64,000 nucleotides of DNA from Prochilodus magdalenae (Eukaryota; Chordata; Actinopteri; Characiformes; Prochilodontidae). Where the stretch lies: assembly GCA_024036415.1 (NCBI GenBank), contig JAMWET010001294.1, forward strand, positions 124,001-188,000. Reading direction: 5' to 3'. Numbering within the stretch: the stretch's first letter is position 1; each line of letters begins with the position of its first letter. Shown in pieces: positions 1 through 62,400 of the stretch. The translations under genes and the position numbers were made by a program. The notes beneath the pieces are model-generated. The model was given only the letters and a program-made list of their open reading frames with translations, had not been told where the DNA came from and made no database searches.

Positions 1-520
1 GGTAGGCAGTGGAATTCATAGTTCCATTTATCACAGCAAGTCTTCCAGGTCCTGAAGCACCAAAACAGCCCAAGGCCATCACACTACCACCACCATATTT
101 TACTGTAGGTATGATGTTCTTTTTCTGAAATGCGGTGTTACTTTTACGCCAGATGTAATGGGACACACATCTTCCAAAAAGTTCAACTTTTGTCTCATCA
201 GTCCACAGAGTATTTTCCCAAAAGTCTTGGGGATCATCAAGATGTTTTCTGGCAAAATTAAGACAAACCTTAATTGTTCTTTTTGCTCAGCAGTGGTTAG
301 CATCTTAGCACTTTGCTAAGTGATTTCTTGATTGAGAACAGGCATGGCAGTAATAATTTTTTGTCTCCCTTAATAATAAAAACCTTCATTTAAAAACTGC
401 AATTTATATTTATAGGTGTTGTCTTAGACTAATATTTAAATTAGTTTGATGATCTGAGTGACAAACATGCAAAAAAATTACAAATCATGAAGGGAGCAAA
501 CACTTTTTCACACCACTGTA
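1..520 (-). mobile_element. Tc1/mariner transposon remnant, truncated at window edge
   Basis: On the minus strand positions 1-300 read, with frame breaks, as the middle of a Tc1-type transposase: WENTLWTDETKVELFG-like and GGGSVMAWGCFGASGPG-like stretches are recognisable. The right part (about 330-520) is the non-coding end of a common fish Tc1 family and finishes CACACCACTGTA at 509-520, where TA would be the target dinucleotide. The transposase N-terminal half is missing: around 297-322 coding sequence runs directly into terminal sequence, so the copy carries an internal deletion. The left end lies outside the window. Confidence 0.85.
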
Positions 521-3385: not shown

Positions 3386-3509
3386 ATGCAGAAGAGAGAG
3401 ATGCTGAAATTAATGACAGCAGTAGCACTGTTGATTTCAGCTCCAGCTATGGATGCTGCACCATGGGTTTCAGAGGTACCAGATCTTCACCAGGTATCAC
3501 TACATGGAG
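3386..3509 (+). CDS. urp2: urp2 exon 1 (signal peptide)
   Basis: Encodes residues 1-41 plus one base. The hydrophobic core covers about residues 7-21 with likely cleavage after A21 or A25. The donor GTAAGT follows at 3510. Later ATG codons at residues 6 and 10 are in frame, so the exact initiator is not certain. Confidence 0.85.
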
Positions 3510-6039
3510 GTAAGTCTGATTGAATGGTCAAATATCCATTTTCAACTGCATCTACTAATGTTTTTTTTGTATTTGCGGAATAGAAGTATTAATGTATGCA
3601 TTGCCTGCCAGTGATCAAGTGATCAGTTCTCATCCTTAATCATTACTTAGAATCCAGGGAGCAGTCTAGCGAAAAACAGGCTAGTCACCATTTAAGGTCC
3701 TAGTATACTGACCTTGACTTTCAAAGAGAGGCACATGCTCTAGTCATCAAATATACCACTAGTGCCTGATGTAGACCAGCTTTAAATTGGCCAAGATTTC
3801 ATTGTGGTGTGGTCATTAATCTATTATTCCAGCGTGGCAAACAAGGCTTCATGACACAAACTGTCTAAATGAATAGGATTTGGAGTGGATTACATGTTAG
3901 ACGAATAGGCCCATGTCTTTCAAAAGCTCTCTAAAGCAGGGTTACCCATTGGAGGCCAACACTGACCAGTGAAGGTATTTAATCTGGCCAGAAGGTTACC
4001 CTAACACTGCCCCCTCACCCAAACACATTATCATACGGAATGTATCATTAGAACTAATTAAAAATTTATTAAAAATTCAACAAATATTTAACATTTTATT
4101 CTTTCAAGTATTTTAGTAAGCATGTGCACTGAAATCTTTCTTTCTTAGTTTTTTGGCACTTAACGACCACAACCAAAACACTTCGGGGCCACAAAACAAA
4201 ATCTGGTAATCACTGCTTTAGAGTAATAATGAAAGACATAATAAATGAAAAGTAATAATGAAAAGTAGTTGCTTGAATAGATCATTTGTCAGAGTGGTTA
4301 GAGTTGTTTAAGTGGTGCACAAAGTTATACCACACCTTAGTGTTCCCCACATGTTACTGCAGAGAGTGCCTATGAGAAGATCTTTAATTAAGTGATGGCA
4401 TTTTCAGTAAGAACAGGTCTTGATGTTGTGTAGCCTTGTCCACAATCTCGCCTGTGACGCCATCAGCTCTGTCTTGCCATGTCCCCTAGCAACTCCTTGA
4501 CATCCTCTAAGCCACTGTCAGCAAGGGTGTATGTACATTTCTTCTTATGAGTGTGTACACGCAATTTGTCTCTGTCTACCTCTAGCGTGGTGAAATAGAA
4601 AAGGCTCTTTTGAAGGTTTTCAGGGCATTTTAGCTGTATCCCCATGTACTGACTACTGATCACTGGGTCTGTTGCTCCAAATAACAAAAGTGTTGAAAGT
4701 GATTACAGGATACATAGTAGCAGTGAATGCTTGTGTTTTAAAAAAAAATACATTAATAAAATATTTGGCTGAGCTCCTGAGACTTATGGAATTATCTACA
4801 TTTTGTCTCAAAGGTGACCAAAAATCGCCAGACCCTTGGACAAGTGGTTCAGATATCCCGGAGATGACAGCAACTGGCAGTCTTGCTAAACTACTGAACA
4901 CAGGACTGACAACAGTGTATTCCAAAGGGCATGGAAAGACAGAAGGAGCCTCACACCAATTAGACAAAGCCACAGCTAGTCCCACTTATGTGGACGAAAA
5001 CTTGGCAGCGACTAACAGTCTAGGCAGACAATTGAAAATTGCTTCAGTGACAATCAGTTCTGATGAACAAGAGAAGATGGTGCCAGCAAGTAACAACTAT
5101 GATAGACGCCTTAAGATAGGCCTTATGATAGATGACCCTGAAACAAGGGAGCATACCACAACAGAAGAAAACGACTCTCACAGACGATTCAACATAATGT
5201 CAGTCACCACTGATTCAAATAAACAAAGCAAGACTTTGCAAGCCACCAGGAGGGCAAAAATAAGTTTGCCCAATAGTAGCCCCAATAGACGAGAGAAGAT
5301 TATGAAGATGCTGAGTGCCCTTGAAGAACTTCATAGGACAATGAACAGCACACTGAGTAGCCGCATTACTATCATATCTAGAGGTAAGGAAAAAGGACAG
5401 GCTTAAAGAAATACGCTATAAAAAGCTATAAAAGCTAATGATTAAACTGCATTGTATCTCCAATGGTTTGCACCTTGTCTTCACCAGGTACAAAACAATA
5501 AGATTCTATTTTTTGGTTTGTTTCAAGGTAACAACAATGGGCGAAGTTCAGGAAAGAAGAATAAAATGGTATGTTGGTGTAAAATTAATTATATATGCAT
5601 AAGTGGATACACGCATCGTTCAATAACTTTAAGGTCACTTTTCTGGATTTCTGTCATCATTTCAGGTAGTGACAGAGGGGATCCTGAAATCAACTACTGT
5701 GTCATCTGTGGCCAGCAATGGCACCTCTCCAAGGACCAGCACCGACCAAGTCGATCCCAAACTCCTGAATGGGAAGACATTTAAAAAGTCCTTTCCATCA
5801 ACTACCAAAAAAAACAACAAAAGAGGTGAGAGAAACTTAAACATACTATAGACAACAGAGTGCATAATATGATACGCTACTTGCATTATCAATGTGTTAT
5901 GGTTGATTTGATGCCAGTTTAACCCAAAGTAATTATACTGACTATTGTTATATTATACTGTTGTTATAAAATTAAAACAACTATTCTTTTGTCCCTCCCC
6001 TTTACAGTGTGCTTCTGGAAATACTGCTCTCAAAATTAA
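3386..6039 (+). CDS. urp2: Urotensin II-related peptide 2 precursor (urp2)
   Basis: Secreted neuropeptide precursor. Exons 3386-3509, 4814-5383, 5528-5568, 5666-5825 and 6008-6039 join in frame (phases 1,1,0,1) to give 308 residues. The start at 3386 opens a signal-peptide-like N-terminus (KLMTAVALLISAPAMDAAP). The precursor ends ...NNKR followed by VCFWKYCSQN and a stop: a dibasic cleavage site, then the urotensin core CFWKYC, whose two cysteines form a disulfide ring. This decapeptide is the one I know as teleost Urp2. In zebrafish it is made by CSF-contacting neurons and acts through urotensin receptors on body-axis straightening. The family places the peptide on a short final exon, as here. 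Unusual: exon 2 encodes 190 residues with internal repeats, whereas human UTS2 and UTS2B precursors are about 120 residues in all. A poly(A) signal lies at 6247-6252. The middle exons rest on splice consensus and phase; the peptide exon is certain. Confidence 0.9.
3929..4223. mobile_element. hAT-like MITE in urp2 intron 1
   Basis: The element runs 3937-4215 (279 bp). Its ends are imperfect inverted repeats: CAGGGTTACCCA on the left, and CAGTGATTACCA on the right read on the minus strand. The CAGNG start is typical of hAT elements. The flanking octamers CTCTAAAG (3929-3936) and CTTTAGAG (4216-4223) agree at 6 of 8 positions and centre on TA, as in Buster-type hAT target duplications. The interior is AT-rich with no transposase. 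Confidence 0.7.
4463..4660 (-). other. Unrecognised coding-like open frame in urp2 intron 1
   Basis: On the minus strand an open frame ends ...TLADSGLEDVKELLGDMARQS, stop at 4463-4465. It has a protein-like composition, and AG acceptor-like sites precede it near 4660. I recognise no family. It could be a retrocopy or exon fragment of another gene, or chance. Confidence 0.25.
4814..5383 (+). CDS. urp2: urp2 exon 2, long repeat-bearing propeptide
   Basis: An AG acceptor at 4812-4813 and donor GTAAGG at 5384 bound 570 nt in the correct phase, continuing from exon 1 as G-D-Q-K. The product is hydrophilic and Ser/Thr-rich. From residue 113 a degenerate unit of about 26 residues recurs: RQLKI at 113, RRLKI at 139, RRFNI at 165, RRAKI at 187, with a shorter RREKI at 200. 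The open frame upstream of 4814 is intronic read-through. Confidence 0.75.
5528..5568 (+). CDS. urp2: urp2 exon 3
   Basis: A 41-nt exon between acceptor TTCAAG and donor GTATGT. It adds 13 full codons rich in Asn, Lys and Gly. It is supported only by splice signals and by restoring the frame of exon 4. Confidence 0.6.
5666..5825 (+). CDS. urp2: urp2 exon 4, ending in the Lys-Arg processing site
   Basis: Acceptor TTTCAG, donor GTGAGA. Encodes a Thr/Ser-rich propeptide that finishes KKNNKR. The Lys-Arg pair directly precedes the mature peptide encoded by the next exon. Confidence 0.85.
6008..6039 (+). CDS. urp2: urp2 exon 5, mature peptide VCFWKYCSQN
   Basis: After acceptor TTTACAG at 6001-6007, the split Val codon and nine further codons give VCFWKYCSQN, then TAA at 6037-6039. 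Both cysteines and the FWKY pharmacophore are intact. Confidence 0.95.
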
Positions 6040-6246: not shown

Positions 6247-6252
6247 AATAAA
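6247..6252 (+). terminator. Poly(A) signal of urp2
   Basis: AATAAA about 210 nt after the urp2 stop codon, followed by AT-rich DNA. The predicted 3' UTR is 6040 to about 6270. Confidence 0.65.
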
Positions 6253-7905: not shown

Positions 7906-8067
7906 TTATTTGATTTTTTTTGCAACATCCAGGTAAGCAAACTCAATTTCTCGTTCTGCAGGGCAGGTGTTGATGAACTCTTCTCTCTGGTAGGCAGAGT
8001 TCAGGTAGCGCCAAATCCCTTTCATGTCGGCTGGAAACTCGAAACCTCTATACTTCTTCGCAACAAT
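7906..8067 (-). CDS. clic6: clic6 last exon
   Basis: Encodes [20 protein letters not shown] and on to DVAKKIK, stop TAA at 7908-7906. This is the C-terminal all-helical part of the CLIC fold. Confidence 0.96.
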   Translation of the reverse strand: MVAKKYRGFEFPADMKGIWRYLNSAYQREEFINTCPAEREIEFAYLDVAKKIK

Positions 8068-11000
8068 CTGAAACAAGCCAACATGTAAATACAACAGAAG
8101 ACAATGAAATGGACTGACATGAATGTCCTATGCTTCCAGACATACAAAACATTCCTCCAAAGTCACTGTAGCTTTGGCAGTGAGGTCCCAAGTGGATGTC
8201 CACAGAATACAGATAAATATATTCCTAAGAGACACAATTTCCTGACTGAGGCATTTAAGTTTTAATGTAAAATCTGCTGGTACTACCATGAACTCAAATG
8301 GGGCCTTTGCAAAAAAGCCCTGCAAAACTGTACTTTGCAGTGAGGATGTACTTTGTACTTTGCAGTGGGGATGAAGTGCCAACAATTGGGACACACATCA
8401 ATTTAAGACAAAAATTTATTTCATGATAAGATTTAAGTTTTAAGATTTAGTTTTTCCCTTTTAGTCACTTCAAAGAAAAAATTGTGTTTTGAATGAAAGA
8501 CTACAGCAGAATGGGATTACTGCTCAGTTTGCTCATGTTTATGCCAGTATTTGTGCATATTTAGAACTTCACACATTTTGAAATTCACACTTAGAAACAA
8601 CATAAACAAAAACACTGCCATAACATGTATTATTTTTGAGACCAAAAGTGAACTGGATTTTTGCTTTTATAGGTGAGGAGGCAAGTTAACATTTATAGTT
8701 GTACATGATTTTCCTCTCCCAATCCGTCCTTGCAGCTCTCTTAGCAGCTCAACATAGACTCACAACATTTCAAACTGCTGATGTGATGTCTAGGGCCTAC
8801 TTAATCTGATAATGATGTGTTACAAGGTAACAGTTCATTTTTTAAAATTTTGTAAAAAATATTTAAGATAATTGTCATTGTGCTGGCATAATGGTTGGTA
8901 AGAAGTGGATAGGAAGTGATATTTTGTGCATCAAAACACATGATCTCTATCCAGAGCATCAGGCCCTTCATAAAATATGTGGGTGCTGAAGATTGCCACT
9001 TTAACATTCTGTGGTGTAATCACAGAGAGTAAGAGTAGATACCTTGATGATGTGTAGTTTTGGAAGTAGGTTACAGTCAGCCAGAGTCAGGTCTGGTCCA
9101 TCAAGGAAGCTGCGTGTGGATGGTGCTGGGTCATCTGTGCTATTCTCATCAATCTCCTCTGGCAATGGAGACTGTAAATACTCATCCAATCTCTTCAAAG
9201 ATTTTAAAAGAACTTTCTCCAGTCCTAAAAAATACATATGATAATAAACAAGAACACATGTATTAAATACCTATTTTTTTACATAGATGTGAGAAAAAAA
9301 TCTCTCTCCCTTCCTGGTGTACAGAATAGACTGGTCACTCCAGAGCCCTGAGCTCAACATCACTTCATTTATTTGGGATTTCCTGGATCATGAGAACCAC
9401 AAAATTGCTTTGCACATTATTGTGCATTTACTTACTGTCCTACAAACTTAAAACAAGAAATAAAATAGAACAGCTGTTTGCTATGTTGATTATAATTATT
9501 TACCATCATTTGCTTCTTTGCGAGGGTTCTTGATATAGGCAGAAAACTTGGCAAATACATCTATCCCTGCTGTGTTTGACTCTGGGTGTTTGGCAGCCAA
9601 CTTTGGGTACCTTTACAAAAATCAATATGAGATTATCAGAAGGCTGTGAAATGGGGCAATGAAGCAGCATTCATTTTCATCACAACTGCACTGTAGTGAA
9701 AGATTCGAATAAACAGAGGAAGGTAATATTTGGTCCAGGACCTTGGTGGCACAAGCCTTTCCTCAAGAAATTCTTCAATTTTGTTAACATCCACCAGCAC
9801 TTCACCATTAAAGGTCATAAAAGGCGGGTTGGTGCCTGGGGCAAGATCCTGCAGGTCAGCTGGTTTCCTGCAAGGTGCACATAAACAGTTCTGTCAGTCA
9901 GCACAGCTAATAAAGGTACAGCACAGTCCTCAGAAAGTTATTTCATCTTAAATCATGGGATCTGCTTGTACTCCAGGAGAGAGTGTTTGTTCTGAATATT
10001 AAATGACAGATTTTTGCTAATTACCTCTTGAGATCCACAGTTGTGACATTGAAGATGACTCCCTTTAGCCATAGAATCATAAAGAGCCTCTGAGAGAAAG
10101 GACAGTTTCCAATACTTTCCCCGTCACTTCCTGCCTGCAAAATGCAATGCAATACAAGCTAAGAAAAATGCAACTCTGGAAAATCAGTGATCACCGGTGA
10201 TAAAAAAAAGTATGGTATATACTGATGAAACAGGTGGAAGATAACAGTTAGAATTTAGGATTTAAAGCTTTCAGGGGATACCAAATTTGAGTTAATAAAC
10301 GAAATATTATTTATTATGCTTTGTAAAAAAGCGAAGGCACCCTTTAGAGGTTTGCAAAGTTCTTATCATCTTTTAAAGTCAACCTGAAGTAAAAATCTAC
10401 CTTTTGTCCCTGTCATATTAAGCAGTATCCACCATAGCTTATCATTTCAAAGACTTCTGGGTTTCCTGTCATTATTAATCAAAAAGTAGTGACTTTTCCT
10501 CACCTGAAAAGTTACAGTGATATTGAACTCCCCCTCCTACCAAAAGCAACAACACTCATGAAGACCTTCCCAGGTATTGCATTTCATAATGTCATGGTAC
10601 AAAAGGAATATTCACTACAGGTTTTGATTTTATGTCAACAACTGTAAAAACATTGGAAAGTGACTAGATCATGTCAGTAAAGAATTTAAGCTGAAAGTAA
10701 ATGTAATTAAGGGCATAACTGTGTGATTCGATATGTAAGTGCATAATTATATTTGGAATGTGCTGTAAATGCACAGTAATACTTTCAATGGCATGAATAC
10801 AGACATTGTATAATCAACATCATAAATACAAACATGGTAACACAAGCCAAACACATTTATTTGGTAAAGCTTTAGTCACTCAGTGAACTGAGCATAAATT
10901 TCCATGAGCCTTTATGCCAAGAAATGAACACCTATCATTCAGTCTTTTATGCCAAGGGGAATCTACTATTTTATTCAGTCTACAATATTTAAGTTTTTAT

Positions 11001-17000: not shown

Positions 17001-20000
17001 TCTTTGCATTGTGAAATGGTCTGTCCTGCTCCAACACACCTGACTGAACTTACCAGTAAATTTAGGCAAATCACTAAACTGTGCTGGTCTCTGGCCCTTG
17101 GGGACTGGAATGAAACACCCTTGCCCAGTGAAAAGACTAGGATCTTATAGGTTTCAGTGCAAAAGAACTAAATGGCACCCTTACATCAAAAAGATCTTGA
17201 AGGAGTAAAATTGAATGACAATGTAATTTGATTGTTTAATTGTTATTGCATAATCTCTACAAAAGTGGGTGCTTTGATGTAGACTAATGGTTAAAGTGGA
17301 TAACTGAGGTAGAGTTACAGATAACTGGAAAAATAAAAGCAAAAAAAATCACTTGCCTGCATTTCCAGTAGCTTCACCACTGTCCTACACTGCTGATTAT
17401 AATCAAATTTTATACTAGGCTCTAAGAAACAAAAGTGCCATAAAAAATAACTTTTGTTTCCAAGAACAACTTCTTAAGTGTTCTATAAGGGAACTATTGT
17501 GTATTCATCATTTCAGGGGTTCTTTTTTCAAACCTTTTCATTGAAAGATATCTAAACAATCTACAATGTTTTTCAGTTTCCCTCTTGAAGAACAATCTAT
17601 TGAAATGTTTTAGGCAGTCAAATACAGTTCCTCCATGACATTGGGTAAAGAAATCGTTTTGGCACCTTTGTATGTAACCCTGAATAATAGTAGGCTACAT
17701 TTAACCCTCATGATTTTACTGTTTAATTGTAATGTTTGAGAGTACCTTTACATAGAGAGAGATCTCCCAGTCAGAAGGATCCGTACTGTAAATCTTCGCC
17801 TCCATCCGCTCAGTTGGACTCATCTTGGGAAGCTCCACACCTTCCTTTTGTATCTCAGTTGGGAGCGACTGCTTCAGCTGAGCTGCCTCCCTCACCAGCG
17901 CGGGTCCAGGGACCCCATTCTCTGCCATGACCTCTTGGCCTTTAGTCTTGACACAGATTTCTTCTTCACGTTCCATGCCAATGTTTCTGGGGTGGCTGCC
18001 AGTAGGTCTAGGCAGCTCCTGTACCTCTAAGGTCTCGCTGGCAATCAGCCACGCTGGTATTGTCACTTTCCGCCCACCTTCTCTAACTCGCTTTTTTGGC
18101 TCATCCTCAATGACAGTCTTGGGCTGTTCTATCTCCTTATCCTCAGCCCCCTGCACAGCTTTTGGCACCACTTCAGTGACTCGACTTGGCTGTTCTTTTT
18201 TTGTGCTCTCTCCCCTTGCTGCCTTCTGTTTACTTTCAATCACTCTCATTAGCTGTTCTAGTACTAGCTTGCTGCTCCTCCTTTCCACCACAGTGTCTAG
18301 TTCATCCTTCATGACCTGCCCAGGCTGTTCTATCTTCTTACACACTCCTTTGCTTGGCTGCTCTATCTCATTACACACCCCCTCCCCCCTGACCCGCTTT
18401 AGTGCACCTGTAGCCTCAGCCATTCTTTCCACTTCAATGCCTTCCTGATCCCCCATGTTTTTACTGCCTGCTCCCGCTTTGCCTCTTTCATTATCTCTAT
18501 CTTTGTGCTGTTCTTTTTCTACAACAGTTTTAACCTTCTCTTCCTCTTTGTATTCTTCTGGTCTATCCACAGTGGGTGGTGTTTCTTCCATGACTATCTC
18601 CTCACATTCTTCAGCTAATTCCAGGCCAGTATCATTGTGCGTCTTTTCAACTGCCTGCTGCGGTTGTATTCCATCATTGCTTGTAGCCTCTATTTCAGCA
18701 GTTGGATTGATGCCATCTTGGTCCTGCAGAACAGTGACAATAGCTTCTGCTTTCTGACCAGTCTTCATCATTACTGATGATTCATCTGTATTGGCCTGTT
18801 GACTTATCTTGGTCATGTGTCCACCAAAGGCATCATCTTTTTGAAGGGTCTTTGGTGATTTCTGAGTTGCCTGGCAGTCTTTTCCTGCACTGCTTAAAGA
18901 CACATCTTGCATAACTAGTTTAGTTTTATTTTCTTCATCTTTTGTTTCTTTGTTAAGATGACTAATTAAAAGTTGCTCAACACCAAATTCCACTTTTGCC
19001 TCTTTTGGTTCTACCTCTTCACTGGGTAAAACTAGTTGCAGTCCTTCTTCTTTAATTGTTGCATCGTCCCCAGCTATTACTGCATTATCCTTTAGGTCTG
19101 GTAATGGCTCCTTTGGGATTTCTTCAACCTCACCATTGGTGGCCAAATCTGGTTGCTTCTCTAGTAATTGTAATATTTCCTTTTCAACATGATTTATCTC
19201 GGAGTTCGAAATAATAGAAACCTGTTTCTCTGGATGTGAACATTCATTATCTTGGCCTTCATTTACATTATAACAGTGAGACAAAGCTGGTTGATTATCC
19301 AGCACCACTTCTTCAACCTCCTTTACTTTCACATTTTCTGAAAAAATGTTTTCTCCCTCAGACTGCTCTATTCTACAAACTTGTACATTATCACCGGTGG
19401 CCTCTGTAGGAAAGCATTTACTTACATTTGAACCGTCATCAGTTTCCTGCATTGTTTCATCTTCAGAGACCACAGAATTTAGCCTCGTCTTTTTTTCTAG
19501 AGTGTGACTTTCTGTCGTGACTACCTCCAAGGATTCCACCACCTGTTCCACTTCTGTCTCTGCACCAAGGCCTTTCTCAGCCTGGTCCTGAATAACTGAT
19601 ACCCCCTCCATTTTCTCCATACTTCTTTCTTGGGAATTTTCACTCAGCATTTCTGGCTTCCTTTCATCTTGCTTTTGTAATGGTCTTGGTTCTACATCCT
19701 GCATTTGTTGATCAAGAACCATAACTGGCTGTTCTGTGTCTTCTCTGCTTGTTACAGGCAGATCTTTAGCAATGGCCTGTGCTTCATCTTGCGTTTCATT
19801 ATACTTTTGTACAGGTCTTGGTTCTACATCCTGCATTTGCTGATCAGGAACCAAAACTGGCTGTTCTGCGTCTTCTCTGCTTGTTACAGGCAGATCTTTA
19901 GCAATGGCCTGTGCTTCATCTTGAGTTTCATCTTGCTTTTGTAGAGGTCTTGGTTCTACATCCTGCATTTGTTGATCAAGAACCAAAACTGGCTGTTCTG

Positions 20001-20502
20001 TGTCTTCTCTGCATGATACAGGCAGATCTTTAGCAATGGCCTGTGCTTCATCTTGAGTTTGCAGTGCTATCTGAGGATACAATTCAGTTGGAGCAGGCGG
20101 GTCAACATCATTCTGTGGTTTACTTACTACGAGATCCAGATCTGTCTTTTCTACCACTTCTTCAAACTCCTCATTTGAAGAGTCTTCTCTAGGTTCTGCA
20201 TCAGTTGGGCTCTTCACATTCGTTTTACTATTTGCATCCTCATTTTCATGCACTATGATCAGGGCCAGTTTGGACTCCTCTTGTTGGCCAGGTGAAGATC
20301 TTTCATTTCCATGTGTCTGCTTTTCTGTTGTGCCATCCTCACTTCCCATGCCAATATCCTCATCCACTTCTTCTGCTAATTCAATTTCTTCCTCCTCATT
20401 GCTGTGATGGTCCTGGTCCTTAGAGGGTTCCGTAGTTGAGAGGATGATTGTATCGTTAGAAATCTCAGCATTAAGCCCTGTATCACTTTTGGCCTGGGCC
20501 AT
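7906..20502 (-). CDS. clic6: Chloride intracellular channel 6 (clic6), long isoform
   Basis: CLIC-family protein: a GST-fold protein with a glutaredoxin-like N-terminal thioredoxin domain, found in soluble and membrane-associated forms. Exons on the minus strand: 20502-17746, 10134-10025, 9867-9742, 9610-9504, 9224-9043 and 8067-7906, joining in phase to 1147 residues. The shared exon lengths 110, 126, 107 and 182 nt are those I know for CLIC genes. The active-site-like segment GNCPFSQRL (Cys930) is intact, as are [12 protein letters not shown] and the end ...DVAKKIK. The last residue of exon 1 continues DWEISLYVK into AGSDGES, as in CLIC6. The N-terminal 910 residues are acidic and low-complexity, as in other long CLIC proteins (CLIC6, CLIC5B). 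Neighbouring rcan1 and smim11 favour CLIC6 over CLIC5 or CLIC4. The start at 20502 is the first Met of the frame. Confidence 0.92.
9043..9224 (-). CDS. clic6: clic6 exon 5
   Basis: Encodes [16 protein letters not shown], the acidic foot loop, [20 protein letters not shown] and IK. 182 nt, the usual length for this CLIC exon. Confidence 0.96.
9300..9420 (+). mobile_element. Small Tc1-like transposase fragment in clic6 intron
   Basis: CCTGAGCTCAACATC and the GGGATTTCCTGGATCATGAG stretch resemble the PDLNIIE...WDxLD region of fish Tc1 transposases. Short and without termini. Confidence 0.35.
9504..9610 (-). CDS. clic6: clic6 exon 4
   Basis: Encodes [15 protein letters not shown] and on to [14 protein letters not shown]. 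107 nt, with donor GTAAAT. Confidence 0.95.
9742..9867 (-). CDS. clic6: clic6 exon 3
   Basis: Encodes [20 protein letters not shown] and on to [10 protein letters not shown]. 126 nt. The donor GTCCTG is a weak splice site, but the phase and the conserved junction R-YPKL require it. Confidence 0.92.
10025..10134 (-). CDS. clic6: clic6 exon 2 (active-site-like Cys)
   Basis: Begins [18 protein letters not shown] and ends VTTVDLKR. The Cys in GNCPFS corresponds to the glutaredoxin-like cysteine of CLIC1 (Cys24). The [10 protein letters not shown] helix is the putative membrane-inserting segment. 110 nt. Confidence 0.95.
11572..11634 (-). CDS. clic6: clic6 alternative short first exon
   Basis: Encodes 21 residues beginning [13 protein letters not shown] and ending IQLFVK, followed by donor GTAAGA at 11571. 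It ends in the same phase and with the same FVK/YVK junction as the long exon. Splicing to 10134 would therefore give a 249-residue protein, the usual length of short CLICs (about 240-253). It implies a second promoter upstream (above 11634) within the first intron of the long transcript. Confidence 0.85.
12725..13540 (+). mobile_element. Tc1-like transposon remnant interrupted by a solo LTR
   Basis: Plus-strand sequence at about 12760-13085 resembles the Tc1 transposase middle (HGGGSIMVWGSF-like, then TGQLTI-like), broken by frameshifts. Matching C-terminal sequence resumes at 13341 ([13 protein letters not shown] through EEWTKIP-like) to about 13500. The 249-bp LTR at 13087 splits it. It lies in the intron between the two clic6 first exons. 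Confidence 0.75.
13082..13340. mobile_element. Solo LTR (249 bp) with 5-bp target duplication
   Basis: A GC-rich insert begins TGTCACGG at 13087 and ends CCTTACA at 13335, giving the TG...CA ends of an LTR. The pentamer GACAT stands directly on both sides (13082-13086 and 13336-13340). No internal retroelement sequence is present, so a solo LTR from recombination is the simplest reading. A non-autonomous element of another class with 5-bp duplications is possible. Confidence 0.75.
13541..16850. other. clic6 intron, no gene seen
   Basis: AT-rich intronic DNA between the two first exons of clic6. Only short chance frames were seen. Confidence 0.5.
16860..17080. repeat. GGTTCTT-type MITE-like repeat
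   Basis: Contains paired AAGGCTCTTCAAG and GAACC/GGTTCTTT motifs typical of a fish palindromic MITE family. Related motifs recur at 17460-17610 and at 50.3-50.6 kb. Ends not defined. Confidence 0.35.
17746..20502 (-). CDS. clic6: clic6 long first exon, acidic repeat-bearing extension
   Basis: 919 codons without interruption, ending ...DWEISLYVK, with donor GTACTC at 17745. The composition is Glu/Asp/Gln-rich, with no predicted fold. Residues 149-280 are three 44-residue tandem repeats. Further on, degenerate IEQP-type motifs recur around residues 710-815. No transmembrane segment is visible. The nine residues after the donor in the same frame are intronic. Confidence 0.93.
19663..20058 (-). 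repeat. Three 132-bp coding tandem repeats in clic6
   Basis: Units 20058-19927, 19926-19795 and 19794-19663 each encode 44 residues starting [14 protein letters not shown] and containing [10 protein letters not shown]. The copies differ by only a few residues, which points to a recent expansion or gene conversion. The frame is kept because 132 is a multiple of three. Confidence 0.95.
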
Positions 20503-22079
20503 AATGCAAATGGAGCAAGCCTACAGTTTGTTGAGAATGTTCTAAGTCTGTGTAACTTCGGTCCACACCATGCAACTGCCTCTCCAGTCTATGCCTTTAG
20601 CACAAACTAGAGCTAACTCTTTCTCTCTCTCTCTCTCGCTCTCTCTCTCTTATTCTCTGACTACCTACCCCCTTTTCTCTGGAGGATTACGGTGAATTTC
20701 GGATCCTGATCCCCACATGACTTGCCAGCTCTCCTAAATCCGCTCCACTGGGAGCCAGGCTGACCCAGGCTGATCGGTTTAAAGAGCAGGACACGCCTTC
20801 CACCTAACCAACTTGCCAATCTGCAAGCCCTCACTCTTTAATAGAAATGACAAAGAATGCCTAAGACAAAAATCCAAGACAAGTTCCAAACAATGTCATT
20901 GTGACCTAAAAGGTACAAAAGTGGTCCTAAGTTACAGGTGTGAACTTTTTAAAGGTAAAAAGGTGTGAATTTGTATAAATTTATAGCTTAATATTTTAAC
21001 AGAACAATTAAATGAACAGAATAAAACCATAACAGGGTGTGTGACATCCATGCAGTTTAAAAAATACAATTGCAATAAAATATGCTACAATTATTTAGTC
21101 ATTAAAGGGACTGAAGATTGAGAATACCACCCAAGTGGCATATGGGGATTTTTTTGAAAATAGTTCTATATTGCACCAAAATTGTTCTGCTTTTGTTACT
21201 ATGTCACACCTCTTTGTTGCCACAAAACATTTAAAAAACTTGGGCTTCTTTAAAAAGTGTACTTCATATGCATCTGGTATCAGTCCCAGGACACATGTTT
21301 TACCAGGGGTGTTAAACACCTGAAGGGCCATGTTTTCCAAAAAAATAAAAAATAAAAAATAAACTCATCAATGCCAGGGACCAGAGCATGTGTGTGTTTT
21401 AATGTAATTTTTAAATGACATTTTGCTGTCGCTAAAGATTATAAAAGATCTGTCAAGTTGGAAAGTCTCCACCTGACTTCCAAGCAAGCTAATGGCAGTC
21501 GCATTGGTGCAATAGAAATGCATTGATATAACAAGCAATATCTGTGCTATTGCATGAAATCAAATATGGGGAACAGCAAAAGTGAAAAGACTTTATTTAA
21601 TTATTTTTAGGTTAAACAAAACATTATTGGTGGCTGCTCAGGCTTAACTGTGTGAAGTGACTGGTATAAAAAGTTTTAACTAACTGTTTCAACTGAGTCA
21701 TGGGGGGTAAACCACTACAATTAATTTACACTGTCATATTAACCCATTAGAAAAAACACAAAATATAACTAGTGATTAGTGATGGGACTCTCTTTATGAT
21801 GCAACTTGGAGTTATTCAGTGTTCTAGAAATACTTCTGAAATGCACATATATATGACATTGTATGACATAACGCGTCACATTAATGATATGTACTGTCAT
21901 ACTGGCCAGTCATAATCAATAACTAATAGACGCCACCAACAGAAACGTTCAGATTTAAACAGATTTTGCAGTGTATAACAACAACCGCAATAAGAGGGCG
22001 CCAAACAACCGTTTATTGAGTCACCACCTACTGAGTGCCCTGAAATCCTACGAATAAACCCGGTTACTCGAATAAAACC
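20503..22079. other. Head-to-head spacer of clic6 and rcan1
   Basis: No gene seen. The part nearest clic6 (20.5-20.8 kb) should contain its 5' UTR and promoter. I could not identify a clear TATA box. Confidence 0.4.
20620..20650 (-). repeat. (GA)n tract upstream of clic6 long start
   Basis: A CT-rich simple repeat on the plus strand, that is GA on the transcribed sense strand, about 120-150 bp before the start codon. It may lie in the 5' UTR or core promoter. Confidence 0.7.
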
Positions 22080-22579: not shown

Positions 22580-33227
<10,648 letters not shown>

Positions 33228-34960: not shown

Positions 34961-35135
34961 GCCCTAATACACATGACGATCTACTCTAAAAGACTATAAA
35001 TAAAAAAAAACATTAATTCTAAATAAAAAGATCCCAGAAACCAAGCAATTTTCACACTAGCACTTTATAGTAGCATTTAATCTTATAATAAAACCAGCCA
35101 ATAAAACCATATTATGTATAATGGGTGGTTTTGGT

Positions 35136-35195
35136 CGGTTCTGTAAATCACTCTGGATAAGAGCGTCTGCTAAATGCCTTAAATGTAAATGTAAA
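35136..35195 (+). repeat. 3' tail of a tRNA-derived SINE
   Basis: CACTCTGGATAAGAGCGTCT followed by GCTAAATGCC and TAAATGTAAATGTAA is the same tail as in the SINE copies at 43.7-44.1 kb. The tRNA-like head is absent. Confidence 0.85.
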
Positions 35196-36503: not shown

Positions 36504-38266
36504 CTGGGGGGGCAGGGAGATAAAAAGCTTGTTAGTGACAGTACCAAAAGCATTTTAAAATTAATTTTACATTTTTAAATGACTAAACGTTCAAAGACTT
36601 TTATTATTATTTTGTTTAAATGGAGAAATGTGAATTAAGGAAGCTTAACCTTATACACAGACAGGCCTACTTGTAACTCCACAACCACTTAACTATTTAG
36701 GTACACTTTATTGTACTCTGTTTGCCCCCTTTTATTTTACTCTTCAATGATCAGGACCCCCACATAGCAGGTATTATTTGGGTGGTGGATCATTCTCAGC
36801 ACTGCAGTGACCCTGATGTGGTGGTGGTGGTGGTTTCTTAGTATGCGTTGGACAGGTGTGAGTGGATCAGACACAGGAGTTTTCATACACCTCAGTGTCA
36901 CAGCTAGAGTAAGAATAGTTCACCAACCAAAAGTATTCAGTCAATGTCTGGTGGGCAGTTTTCTGTGACTAGACAATGACCAACACAAACTGTGAAACAG
37001 ATATACCATCATCTCTGATGATCTGCAGAGTGGACCACAAGGTAGAAGTGTCTAATAGAGAGAACAGTATTTAAAACGCTGCTTTGTCTGATCCATTTGT
37101 ACCAGGGCAACACACATTGAGACTGCGCTGCTAAAAATAATACACCAAATGTCTGTTTTATGGTACTGTGGGGGTCCGGACCACTAAAGAACAAGGTAAA
37201 AAGCCGCTAACAATGTATGCAGAGAAGCAGGTGGACTACAGTCTGTAATTGTAGATCTACAAACATGCACACGTAATGTTGTTTAATAATAGAGACACTT
37301 TTAGTTCATTCAAATTTAAAGTTAATTCACTTCATAAATGACTAGCTTACCATGTGACTGTTTTCTCTAATGCACCCTGGCATTCAGTCATCCTTCTTTT
37401 TGTTAATGAGTTCCTGGGTTTCCTGAGCGAGCTTCCTCTTCATCTCCATTTGCTGTTTAAGGGCTGCTTCTGCTCTCCTCTGCTGATATAGTTTAGCTCC
37501 AGCAAAGGCCAGACACAACAGCAGGGTCTTAGCTGCCAGAATGTAGAAGAGTAGTGGGACATTGTCCAAAGCCTACAACAAAAATATCAAAATCAGTTAA
37601 AAGAAATAGCGGTAGAATTCTAGCACAGGAAAAGTCCCCTCTGGAAATGTCTAGAACACCTGGCATAATCTGACATGGGTGGGGGTCGCTACTTTAGACA
37701 GCTGACCAACTGTATGTATATGTACCAGTTCCTCAATCAATGATTAATACTCAGCTAAGCAAGCGGTAACGCAGTCCTGCCGGGAAACGCAGAAACTTGG
37801 GCTAAAATGATAGAACAACCTCTATCTGTACTCAAAAGTAATAAACTCTCGTATGCCTACACATCTCTGCTGATTCTCGGAGCCCGTCTAGAAATGTCCA
37901 GAACAGCTGAGCCCAATCTGAAGAGGGGGCAGGGCAGTCAGCAGAGACAGCGCAGTAGCTGTTTATACATGTGTAATATCTGCTGTCCAGCGAGTCTTCC
38001 TTTCCAGTGTACTGTTATATTAGTGCTTATTCAGACACGAAGGCTATGCTGACTTTAACTGTATATCTCGTTTTGTGTGAAATATCAGAGATATTTAAAT
38101 ACATGATAACAGATATACATACATTCAAAACGCTTCAGAGACCGAAACTGCCTGGACTGAAGTGGAAGAAGGTTTTTAGGGAGGAACACAAAAGTTCACC
38201 ATATTCGTACATGATAATAAAATAACAAGATAAGAAAAAAAAGCTTCTTACCCGCCAGTTAATCAT
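36335..38266 (-). CDS. smim11: Small integral membrane protein 11 (smim11)
   Basis: A 67-residue single-pass membrane protein of unknown molecular function. Coding exons 38266-38252 (MINWR) and 37572-37384 (ALDNVPLLFYILAAKTLLLC and on to ELINKKKDD) join in phase 0 through donor GTAAGA and acceptor TTGTAG. It aligns with human SMIM11 (MNWKVLEHVPLLLYILAAKT...). The hydrophobic segment spans about residues 10-29, followed by a charged Lys/Glu/Gln-rich helical tail, probably cytosolic. The stop is followed 33 nt later by a perfect donor, GTAAGC (37350). An acceptor with a CCCCCCCAG tract precedes 36503, so a 3' UTR intron is predicted and the last non-coding exon runs 36503 to about 36335. The stretch 36335-37383 is therefore 3' UTR and intron. 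Confidence 0.9.
36715..37275. mobile_element. Long palindromic repeat element in smim11 3' UTR intron
   Basis: Two imperfect inverted arms. 36847-36873 (GTGAGTGGATCAGACA) pairs with 37085-37112 (TGTCTGATCCATTTGTACC). The outer parts pair too: CAGGACCCCCACATAGCAGG near 36752 with GTGGGGGTCCGGACCAC near 37168. The same family occurs as a single arm at 26.45 kb. It resembles a very common ostariophysan repeat and has no coding capacity. Confidence 0.8.
37384..37572 (-). CDS. smim11: smim11 coding exon 2
   Basis: 62 codons and a TGA stop. Contains the transmembrane segment and the basic tail. Confidence 0.95.
   Translation of the reverse strand, partial: ALDNVPLLFYILAAKTLLLCLAFAGAKLYQQRRAEAALKQQMEMKRKLAQETQELINKKKDD
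38252..38266 (-). CDS. smim11: smim11 coding exon 1
   Basis: Five codons, MINWR, then donor GTAAGA. Matches the MNWK start of mammalian SMIM11. Confidence 0.88.
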
Positions 38267-59429: not shown

Positions 59430-62400
59430 GGATCTGGAGAAAGGAACAGCATTGGAAGATGGCAGACATGTGATAGTAACATCATTGGGTAATGGGAAAT
59501 AGAGTCGGGGGTGAGAGGAGAACGCCCCCTCCCCCCCAAGAGGTCAGAGATCAGCACAACAGCCACAACAAGCACCCCCCTATAACCAGGTCTGGTCAGG
59601 AAGTGAGCTCTGGGACCTGTCGCGGCAGGGAATGGGGACCCCTTCTCATGGGACAACCCCATTGACGGCCAACGGACAGGCTCAAGGAGCAAAGGTTTTA
59701 ACTGTGGGGAAAGTAGCATCAATTACTTTACTGATGATTTTGAAAGGACCAATGTATTTGGGTAACAACTTCTTACATCCCTCAGAAACCTTGGTCACTG
59801 GTTGACAACCATACTCAACCCACCAGGAACATATGAAGGGGCGTGCTGACGATGGTTATCAGCCTGAGACTTATTGCACTGTGGGGTTGTCTCAATGAGC
59901 TGGTGGGTCTCTTCCCAAACTTCCTCACTCCTCCTCATCCAGTGTTCTACGGAGGGTACATCTGAAGGATGATCAAGACATTAGTAGTGGTTGATAACCC
60001 AGCATACATGGAAACTGTATGACAGATGTGGCAGAATTGATGAGTGAGTTTTATACAATTTCTCCTTTAGGGACCAGTTGACAATTATGACAATTAACTC
60101 TTAGACTCTTAGACTTTTCTTAGACTTCTTGAATTACTCTCCTACACTGATAGAGATATTCAGTCCCTTTATAAATTGACACGTGGACTGAGTACCTCTG
60201 TTAGACACAATGTCTTTGGCGATACCGAAAAAATGGAAAATGTAATTCTCAGCAGTCTGGAAGCAGTTGGTAACTGTGGGAATGGGATAAATCTAACACA
60301 ACTAGAAAAGAGATCAACCACCGTAAGAATGACCATGCAATACAGGAAGGTCCATGACAAAATGTATTGCAATATGCACCAACAGGCTAGCAAATGGAGC
60401 GAAAAGCAACATCTGAGAACATGCTCTTCCACCAATATTTGCCCAAACTCAGTTGAAGTGTTCTGGTCTCCCCAGGATGTCCAAAGGTGAGCAATGAATG
60501 AGAACAAATTTTGAGGTGGAAATGAGAGAAGAACAAAGACCAATGGCTGTGAATTGAAGCTTTTAGTGGTAAATAAATATTTAAAGTTTTTGTGATGGGT
60601 TAGCACTAGGAATGGATATTGGACAATCTCTAGCCAATGATGCCACTCCTCCAAGATGAGCTTCATGACTAAAGGTTCACAATCCCTAATTGCGTAGTTA
60701 CGTTCTGCAGGGCTTAATTTGTGGGGAAAGAAAGCAATGGGGTGAAGTTTTTTGGAAGAATTGTGACGTTATGACAAGACAGCCCCAAGACAGGTTGGAG
60801 AGTTTAAACAGAGATACAGAAGTAAATTGAGACTTTAAATCATTAAAAGCTGATTCGGCTTAAGGGTGTTATTTTTGAACAGGGAAGTAAGTGGTGTCTC
60901 AATGGAACTGTAGCTACGAATAAACTGACAATAAAAATGAGCAAAACCTAGGAACCTCTGGACATCTCAAACAGACTTAGGAGTTTGGCACTTCACAGCT
61001 GCATCGACCTTATGGTCGTACATAGCCACTCCTTCTGGACTAAAGACATAATCAAGGAATACAGTTGGTCTACATTTAAATTTTTCATCCATAACAAATA
61101 GCTAATGTCCAAGGAGAAAAGTGAGTACCTGCCTAACCTAAAGCATATGAGTAGAATAATCTGAAGAGTAAATTTTTTGAAGAGTAAAAATTTATCTAGG
61201 CAAGGGCAAATCGGCCTAACATGTCCCAGAGAACATGGTTAATAAACATCTGGATAACCCAAAGGGCATAACTTGGTAGTCATAGTTCCCTCTAGTGGTG
61301 AGGAAGACTCATCTCCTTGGCAAACTCTAACCAAATTATAAGCACTACAGAGATTCAATTTAGTGAATACCGTAGCACCTCTACGTTGTTTGTGAGCTAC
61401 AGGGACCAACAGAAGTGGATAAGAAAAGGGTTTGGTGATGGAATTGAGACCCCTGTAATCGATGCATGGCCTGAGACCACCATCCTTCTTTTTAACAAAA
61501 AGAACTCGGAAGTAGCAGGACAGGTGGATATACCCTGTGATAAACCCTCCAGTATGTACTCTTCTGTTGTGGCCTCCTCTGCATGAGTTAGCAGGTAAAC
61601 ACGAGACTTAAGAGGTATTTGGTTATCGACTAAGTCAATAGCACAGTCATATTCACTGTGTGGAGGTAATTTGGTGGAATTTGCCTTATTAAAAACCTCA
61701 GCTAGATCTGAGTACTCAAAGCCCATACATACTAGATTTTGTACCTCTGGACTTTTAAATGGTGGTGACTTGACAGACAAATTAGATAACGCAAGACAAT
61801 TTTGAAAACAATAGAAAGACCAAGACAAGATCTCTCTTTTTGACCAAGAGATGAGAGGGTCAGGAGTTCCAGAATAATGGCATACTCAGGAATCTAACAC
61901 AAAAAAACACAGCAGTGATGGGTTGAGTGGTTTGGGAGATGACACAGTGTCACCATCAACTGCAGACAGCCTCAGAGGTGAGTCCAGGGTAATGACAGGA
62001 ATCTGGAGATGAGTAAATATAAATTAAATTGATTTTTCTTCTAAATAAAATTCCCCTCAGCCTGTTGCAGAAAATGGTTAGCAAAGTGGGTTCATTCCAG
62101 CTGCTACCAGCAGCCATTGTGCGAAATTCCAATGAATATTTGGCTACAGAACAATTACATTGACACAAGAGAACTCATAGCTCACCATAAGATACTGTCA
62201 TGGGGATGGTCAAACACAAACTTTTGGAAATTTAGAAATCAAATTATCATAAGTATCGTTCTCATAGACAGCGCAAACCACAGTGACCCAATCCTAAGCC
62301 ATACCAGATAAACACAAGATGACAAAAAAGATACAGGACTTATTGGTACTAGGTGGAGAATTAGCGAAGTAAAAGGAACACTGAAACAAAAAACCTCAGC

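Follow-up and report, generated by a model that had tools for sequence, protein, structure and literature searches.

An intact urp2 gene in the characiform Prochilodus magdalenae and a conserved helical segment of its precursor

Contig JAMWET010001294.1 of Prochilodus magdalenae carries, with a probability that we put at about 0.96, an intact characiform urp2 gene for a secreted prohormone precursor, an orthologue in its known place. The window referred to below is the whole 64,000-nucleotide stretch analysed (contig positions 124,001 to 188,000), and all coordinates are counted from its first letter. The structure, orthology, conservation and neighbourhood of urp2 were obtained from this stretch. 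The encoded precursor would comprise a signal peptide and a long spacer that is largely disordered apart from a single conserved helix, and convertase cleavage after a KR pair is predicted to release the disulphide-ringed decapeptide VCFWKYCSQN.

Gene structure and orthology

The coding sequence is divided among five plus-strand exons, whose borders are all canonical (GT/AG) and whose phases are 1-1-0-1:

3386..3509 (+), urp2 exon 1: start codon and putative signal peptide region (about residues 1-24); GT donor, open reading frame
4814..5383 (+), urp2 exon 2: extended middle part of the precursor (residues 42-231); flanked by AG and GT, with phase 1 at either end
5528..5568 (+), urp2 exon 3: 41-bp micro-exon, residues 232-245; AG/GT borders, residues match homologues
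5666..5825 (+), urp2 exon 4: residues 246-298 and the first base of V299; AG/GT borders
5819..5824 (+), KR cleavage site preceding the mature peptide, residues 297-298; invariant in 138/138 homologues
6008..6039 (+), urp2 exon 5: VCFWKYCSQN, whose V codon begins at 5825, and the stop codon; splice model and homologues
6247..6252 (+), possible polyadenylation signal AATAAA; motif position only

A preliminary description of this DNA had proposed an intact urp2 gene at 3386..6039, in which KR from the previous exon is followed by VCFWKYCSQN with both cysteines and the FWKY core intact, and the gene model agrees with it on each of these points. The spliced frame encodes a 308-residue precursor without internal stop or frameshift, ending NKR-VCFWKYCSQN. 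Exon 4 closes with ...AAA AGA G and thus encodes KR, the V299 codon is split as G and TG between exons 4 and 5, and exon 5 supplies CFWKYCSQN and the stop. CFWKYC occurs a single time when the window is translated in all six frames, with 0.00015 occurrences expected from base composition alone. The start region of exon 1 is similar to the Colossoma and Serrasalmus precursors and is hydrophobic by eye, and exon 2 is covered by the full-length alignment to homologues.

The best protein matches were those of Colossoma macropomum (78% identity, E 3.9e-144), likewise one of the Characiformes, and Serrasalmus rhombeus (77%), both over the full length. Identity was 64% for Astyanax, and 42% over 98% of the query for zebrafish. 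As the Colossoma match extends over 100% of the query, chance is ruled out and all five exons are supported, the 41-bp exon 3 among them. The matched records are named 'urotensin II-related peptide', and we assign them to the Urp2 type because their decapeptide is VCFWKYCSQN. The Pfam model Urotensin_II (PF02083) reached just 7 bits at residues 300-305, below its cut-off of 18.6, which we attribute to the model spanning only 12 positions; the precursor is accordingly not assigned to that model.

The homologue set was assembled from a protein search with 110 matches, the best 120 of 141 and a further 44, giving 144 proteins; it holds no frog, shark or lobe-finned sequences. In the first search 104 of the 110 homologues end in NKRVCFWKYCSQN and six lack the core. 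Among the matches listed, the CFWKYC core is present in 138 of the 144 proteins, with the C-terminus NKRVCFWKYCSQN in 136 of these 138 and NKRVCFWKYCSQK in the other two. The six proteins without the core (P0019, P0022, P0050, P0051, P0052 and P0110) were dropped before counting. One of them, P0022 of Bagarius yarrelli, is named 60S ribosomal protein L24 and appears to be a fusion of L24 to most of an Urp2 precursor; this fused gene model is probably an annotation error. Closely related species, additional gene models of one species (e.g. P0076/P0134) and partial models are found among the 138 core-bearing rows, so counts over these rows are not independent. On this set the ending is SQN in 136/138 and SQK in 2/138, NKRV is invariant, and both K297 and R298 are retained in every row. 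Across the 118 positions that a partial Hoplias model covers, the window agrees with Hoplias at 86, with Astyanax at 91, with Colossoma at 100 and with Serrasalmus at 101; by this measure, and among the species compared, the gene is closer to those of Serrasalmidae than to those of Hoplias and Astyanax.

With the teleost Urp2 precursors of Colossoma (P0002), Serrasalmus (P0001) and zebrafish (P0039), the window gene shares full-length homology, an identical decapeptide and the preceding KR. Its division into five exons, the last of which encodes the peptide, is that published for Xenopus and zebrafish (PMC8354755, PMC9836392). Xenopus Urp2 also encodes its peptide in exon 5 and has rcan1 and clic6 as neighbours, but by published description its peptide is ACFWKYCIQNK, its precursor has 152 residues (PMC8354755), and frog Urp2 precursors are described in the same source as having no appreciable similarity outside the peptide. 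Urp1, UII and Urp (UTS2B) have the CFWKYC ring in common with the window Urp2, whereas the flanking residues differ.

Could such a gene nonetheless be an untranscribed pseudogene of intact appearance? The X. laevis urp2-S copy, which is described as little expressed (PMC8354755), lends this idea some substance. However, 308 codons run over five exons without a lesion and with canonical splice signals, and the mature peptide with its KR is identical to that of other teleosts, so that we regard a pseudogene as highly improbable and retain the reading of an intact gene.

Neighbourhood of urp2 and the paralogy question

Downstream of urp2, the following genes were located in the window:

7912..10155 (-), clic6 CLIC-domain exons, five matched blocks; tblastn E 5e-13 to 1e-23, Pfam
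17719..20520 (-), 934-residue open frame, probably the long clic6 first exon; open frame, no CLIC domain
31081..33212 (+), rcan1 exons, three matched blocks; tblastn with an RCAN1 query, Pfam Calcipressin 3.1e-21
37411..37572 (-), smim11; Pfam FAM165 6.9e-26, tblastn with human SMIM11 1.5e-15

The CLIC blocks were found with a CLIC domain as the tblastn query, and Pfam recognises CLIC-like_N there at 4.8e-15. That the CLIC gene is clic6 and the RCAN gene rcan1, rather than one of their paralogues, follows from the neighbourhood, i.e. from position. The frame at 17719-20520 probably represents the long first exon of this clic6 gene, judging from its position and from the architecture of CLIC6. 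The placement of urp2 beside a clic6-rcan1-smim11 block, as put forward in the preliminary description, is therefore borne out by CLIC (-), RCAN (+) and smim11 (-) genes, with the clic6 and rcan1 types assigned by position. A search for kcne1 with a core sequence as the query gave no convincing match in the window (best E 0.39).

This linkage was already known, since the published map matches the CLIC and RCAN neighbours in the window: rcan1, clic6 and gart adjoin urp2 in X. tropicalis and in ray-finned fishes (Alejevski et al. 2021, PMC8354755), and gar and zebrafish are shown in the urp2 synteny figure of that paper. It also bears on whether the gene could instead be urp1, or a different UII paralogue whose sequence has come to resemble Urp2 by drift. 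Urp1 and Urp2 do have the ring and the five-exon structure in common (PMC9836392), but the window gene aligns over nearly its whole length to the zebrafish precursor bearing VCFWKYCSQN, its SQN ending is the type described for fish Urp2, and its CLIC and RCAN neighbours are those of the published urp2 locus (PMC8354755). A drifted paralogue thus has very little to recommend it beside orthology with urp2.

The preliminary description also proposed that the linkage to a RUNX/CLIC/RCAN paralogy region may shed light on the expansion of the UII family through the vertebrate genome duplications. Pfam scans of 20 chosen open frames of the window returned matches in seven at the thresholds used (5/10 and 2/10), three of them only below the family cut-off (17719-20520, 9004-9270 and 61242-61607), and no RUNX domain. 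In human, UTS2 maps to 1p36 and UTS2B to 3q28. With RUNX/CLIC/RCAN clusters on human chromosomes 21, 6 and 1 (PMC3896409), one-to-one co-duplication is not evident, and the locations of the UII family and of these clusters would match in part only. A 1R/2R origin is cited from earlier work in PMC8354755, where loss in amniotes is inferred. Among the mostly open-access matches listed in a literature search, titles and the opening lines of abstracts held no description of a link between urp2 and a RUNX paralogon.

Elsewhere in the window, retroelement remnants with reverse transcriptase and RNase H lie at 60172-61607 (-), with Pfam RT_RNaseH at 2e-12 and RVT_1 at 7e-5, the latter below the Pfam cut-off. 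A UnaL2 LINE 3' element at 35130-35183 (+; 57.5 bits) is the sole Rfam match in the window at gathering score, and a tRNA scan of the window found none. An open frame at 2-286 (-), which matched no Pfam family, presumably represents the end of a Tc1/mariner-type transposase, judging by resemblance.

Repeats, a helix and a G-dibasic site in the pro-region

Outside the mature peptide, the following elements of the precursor were identified:

5014..5151 (+), internal repeat pair, first member, residues 109-154; self-alignment
5170..5295 (+), internal repeat pair, second member, residues 161-202; self-alignment
5281..5364 (+), conserved helical pro-region module, residues 198-225; column counts in 138 homologues, Colossoma model
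5344-5352 (+), sequon N219-S-T; N-x-[ST] in 124/138 homologues
5551..5559 (+), G240-K-K, conserved dibasic with preceding glycine, a possible cleavage/amidation signal; homologue counts

The exon-2 repeats align to each other with a score of 62, against a shuffle mean of 30 and maximum of 52, and none of 200 shuffles reaches 62. Among 15 chosen relatives, the signal of internal repeats is strong in Serrasalmus, Colossoma, Astyanax and Alosa (0/60 shuffles each), borderline in Pangasianodon (1/60) and Silurus (3/60), and not detected in the other nine, where 11 to 40 of 60 shuffles reach the score. The best repeat pairs have other borders in the relatives, so a single common duplication is not established. 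The repeats may account for part of the precursor length, which is 308 residues in the window as compared with 243 in zebrafish and 152 in gar. Basic pairs (RR) recur within the repeats (5014-5295).

When identity to the window was averaged in blocks of ten residues over 104 homologues, residues 211-230 gave means of 0.76 and 0.70, which by column identity makes them one of the most strongly conserved regions of the precursor apart from the mature peptide and its adjacent basic residues. Individual positions are retained across the 138 homologues to a similar degree (L211 in 136, N219 in 131, M207 in 128, R231 in 127). The sequon at N219 has S as its middle residue in 100 of the 124 rows that possess it (N 8, R 7, G 4, K 2, and H, Y and I 1 each), and is absent from 14 of the 138 homologues, zebrafish among them. 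An AlphaFold2 model of the Colossoma orthologue, built with 60 relatives, is mostly disordered (mean pLDDT 51.6). It contains helices at residues 3-17, in the signal peptide region, and at 196-223, where Colossoma numbering equals window numbering minus 2, with a pLDDT of 93 for the block 201-210. In the window, residues 202-219 have a hydrophobic moment of 0.46, against a shuffle mean of 0.23, and 2.5% of shuffles reach the observed value.

The glycine-preceded dibasic site at residues 240-242, within the micro-exon, closes the conserved pro-segment and reads G-[KR]-[KR] in 123 of the 138 homologues, and two basic residues are kept in 133. K/R exchange is seen at the site, and the two residues before the glycine are variable. 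The 15 exceptions comprise 12 rows in which the motif is broken (AKK 3, RRK 3, GGK 2, and ARK, SRK, VKK and KRK 1 each) and three gene models without the exon-3 residues. Spotted gar reads ...AAGKRNR at this site; since gar has GKR, the site is not confined to teleosts. At the N-terminal side of the helix, the dibasic at residues 200-201 occurs in just 74/138, with gar and zebrafish lacking it. The dibasics nearer the peptide are kept in 134/138 (residues 285-286) and 137/138 (293-294).

We compared the helix block with human pro-regions, submitting 200 shuffles for each comparison. The somatostatin pro-region scored 3.5 bits, reached by 2 of 114 reported shuffles, which is borderline, and no homology is claimed. 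UTS2 (-0.7 bits, reached by 26/111 reported shuffles) and UTS2B (-4.6 bits, reached by 123/123) gave no indication of homology. A longer C-terminal profile scored 3.1 for somatostatin (2/198 shuffles reach), 10.4 for UTS2 (0/137) and 15.0 for UTS2B (0/186), the last two as would be expected of precursors that have the ring peptide in common.

Compatible with an intact urp2 gene, though unlikely, is the release of another conserved product besides Urp2, namely the helical segment cleaved at G-[KR]-[KR], which might be glycosylated and carry a C-terminal amide. The conservation of the segment and its frequent sequon would fit such a product, as would its forming the sole helix of the Colossoma model beyond the signal peptide, and a G-dibasic site that keeps its basic character through K/R exchange next to variable residues, in gar as well as in teleosts. 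Against this, the motif is broken or missing in the exceptions listed, the N-terminal dibasic is present in little more than half of the rows, the sequon is lacking in 14 of the 138 rows, zebrafish included, and the frog precursors are described as dissimilar outside the peptide (PMC8354755). The dibasics nearer the peptide are moreover equally conserved, and the conservation would be accounted for just as well if the segment served in sorting or folding. A role of the pro-segment in sorting, glycosylation or folding is at least as likely as that of a second messenger. The most specific version, for which we hold out slightly less hope still, is that the Urp2 precursor of ray-finned fish (gar and teleosts) is a dual prohormone, yielding the ring peptide together with a helical, often N-glycosylated peptide that ends at G-[KR]-[KR] in micro-exon 3 and would be co-released from CSF-contacting neurons. 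No description of a second Urp2 product was found in the titles and abstract openings among the literature matches listed, mostly open-access.

Proposed function and significance

In zebrafish and frog, the ring peptide of CSF-contacting neurons is thought to act via Uts2r3/Utr4; published findings differ, as knock-down and overexpression suggested a role in embryonic straightening, whereas in peptide-deletion mutants Urp1 and Urp2 proved dispensable for it (PMC8354755, PMC9836392). By orthology, the Prochilodus peptide would likewise be made in CSF-contacting neurons and may act with Urp1 on body and spine shape, probably via Uts2r3/Utr4 in dorsal muscle. Published deletions targeting the peptide encoded by the last exon were not conceived as a test of the dual-prohormone reading. 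In the zebrafish urp2-deltaP line the sequence coding for the peptide is deleted, and transcript decay is also reported for this line, so that a role of the pro-segment itself is not separated there (PMC9836392).

The window gene is a further characiform orthologue of urp2, whose peptide has been linked to spine shape and to scoliosis models. The Urp2 peptide and its locus have already been described. The pro-segment is a modest, testable lead, and it could matter if it proved to act as a second messenger or to be needed for sorting.
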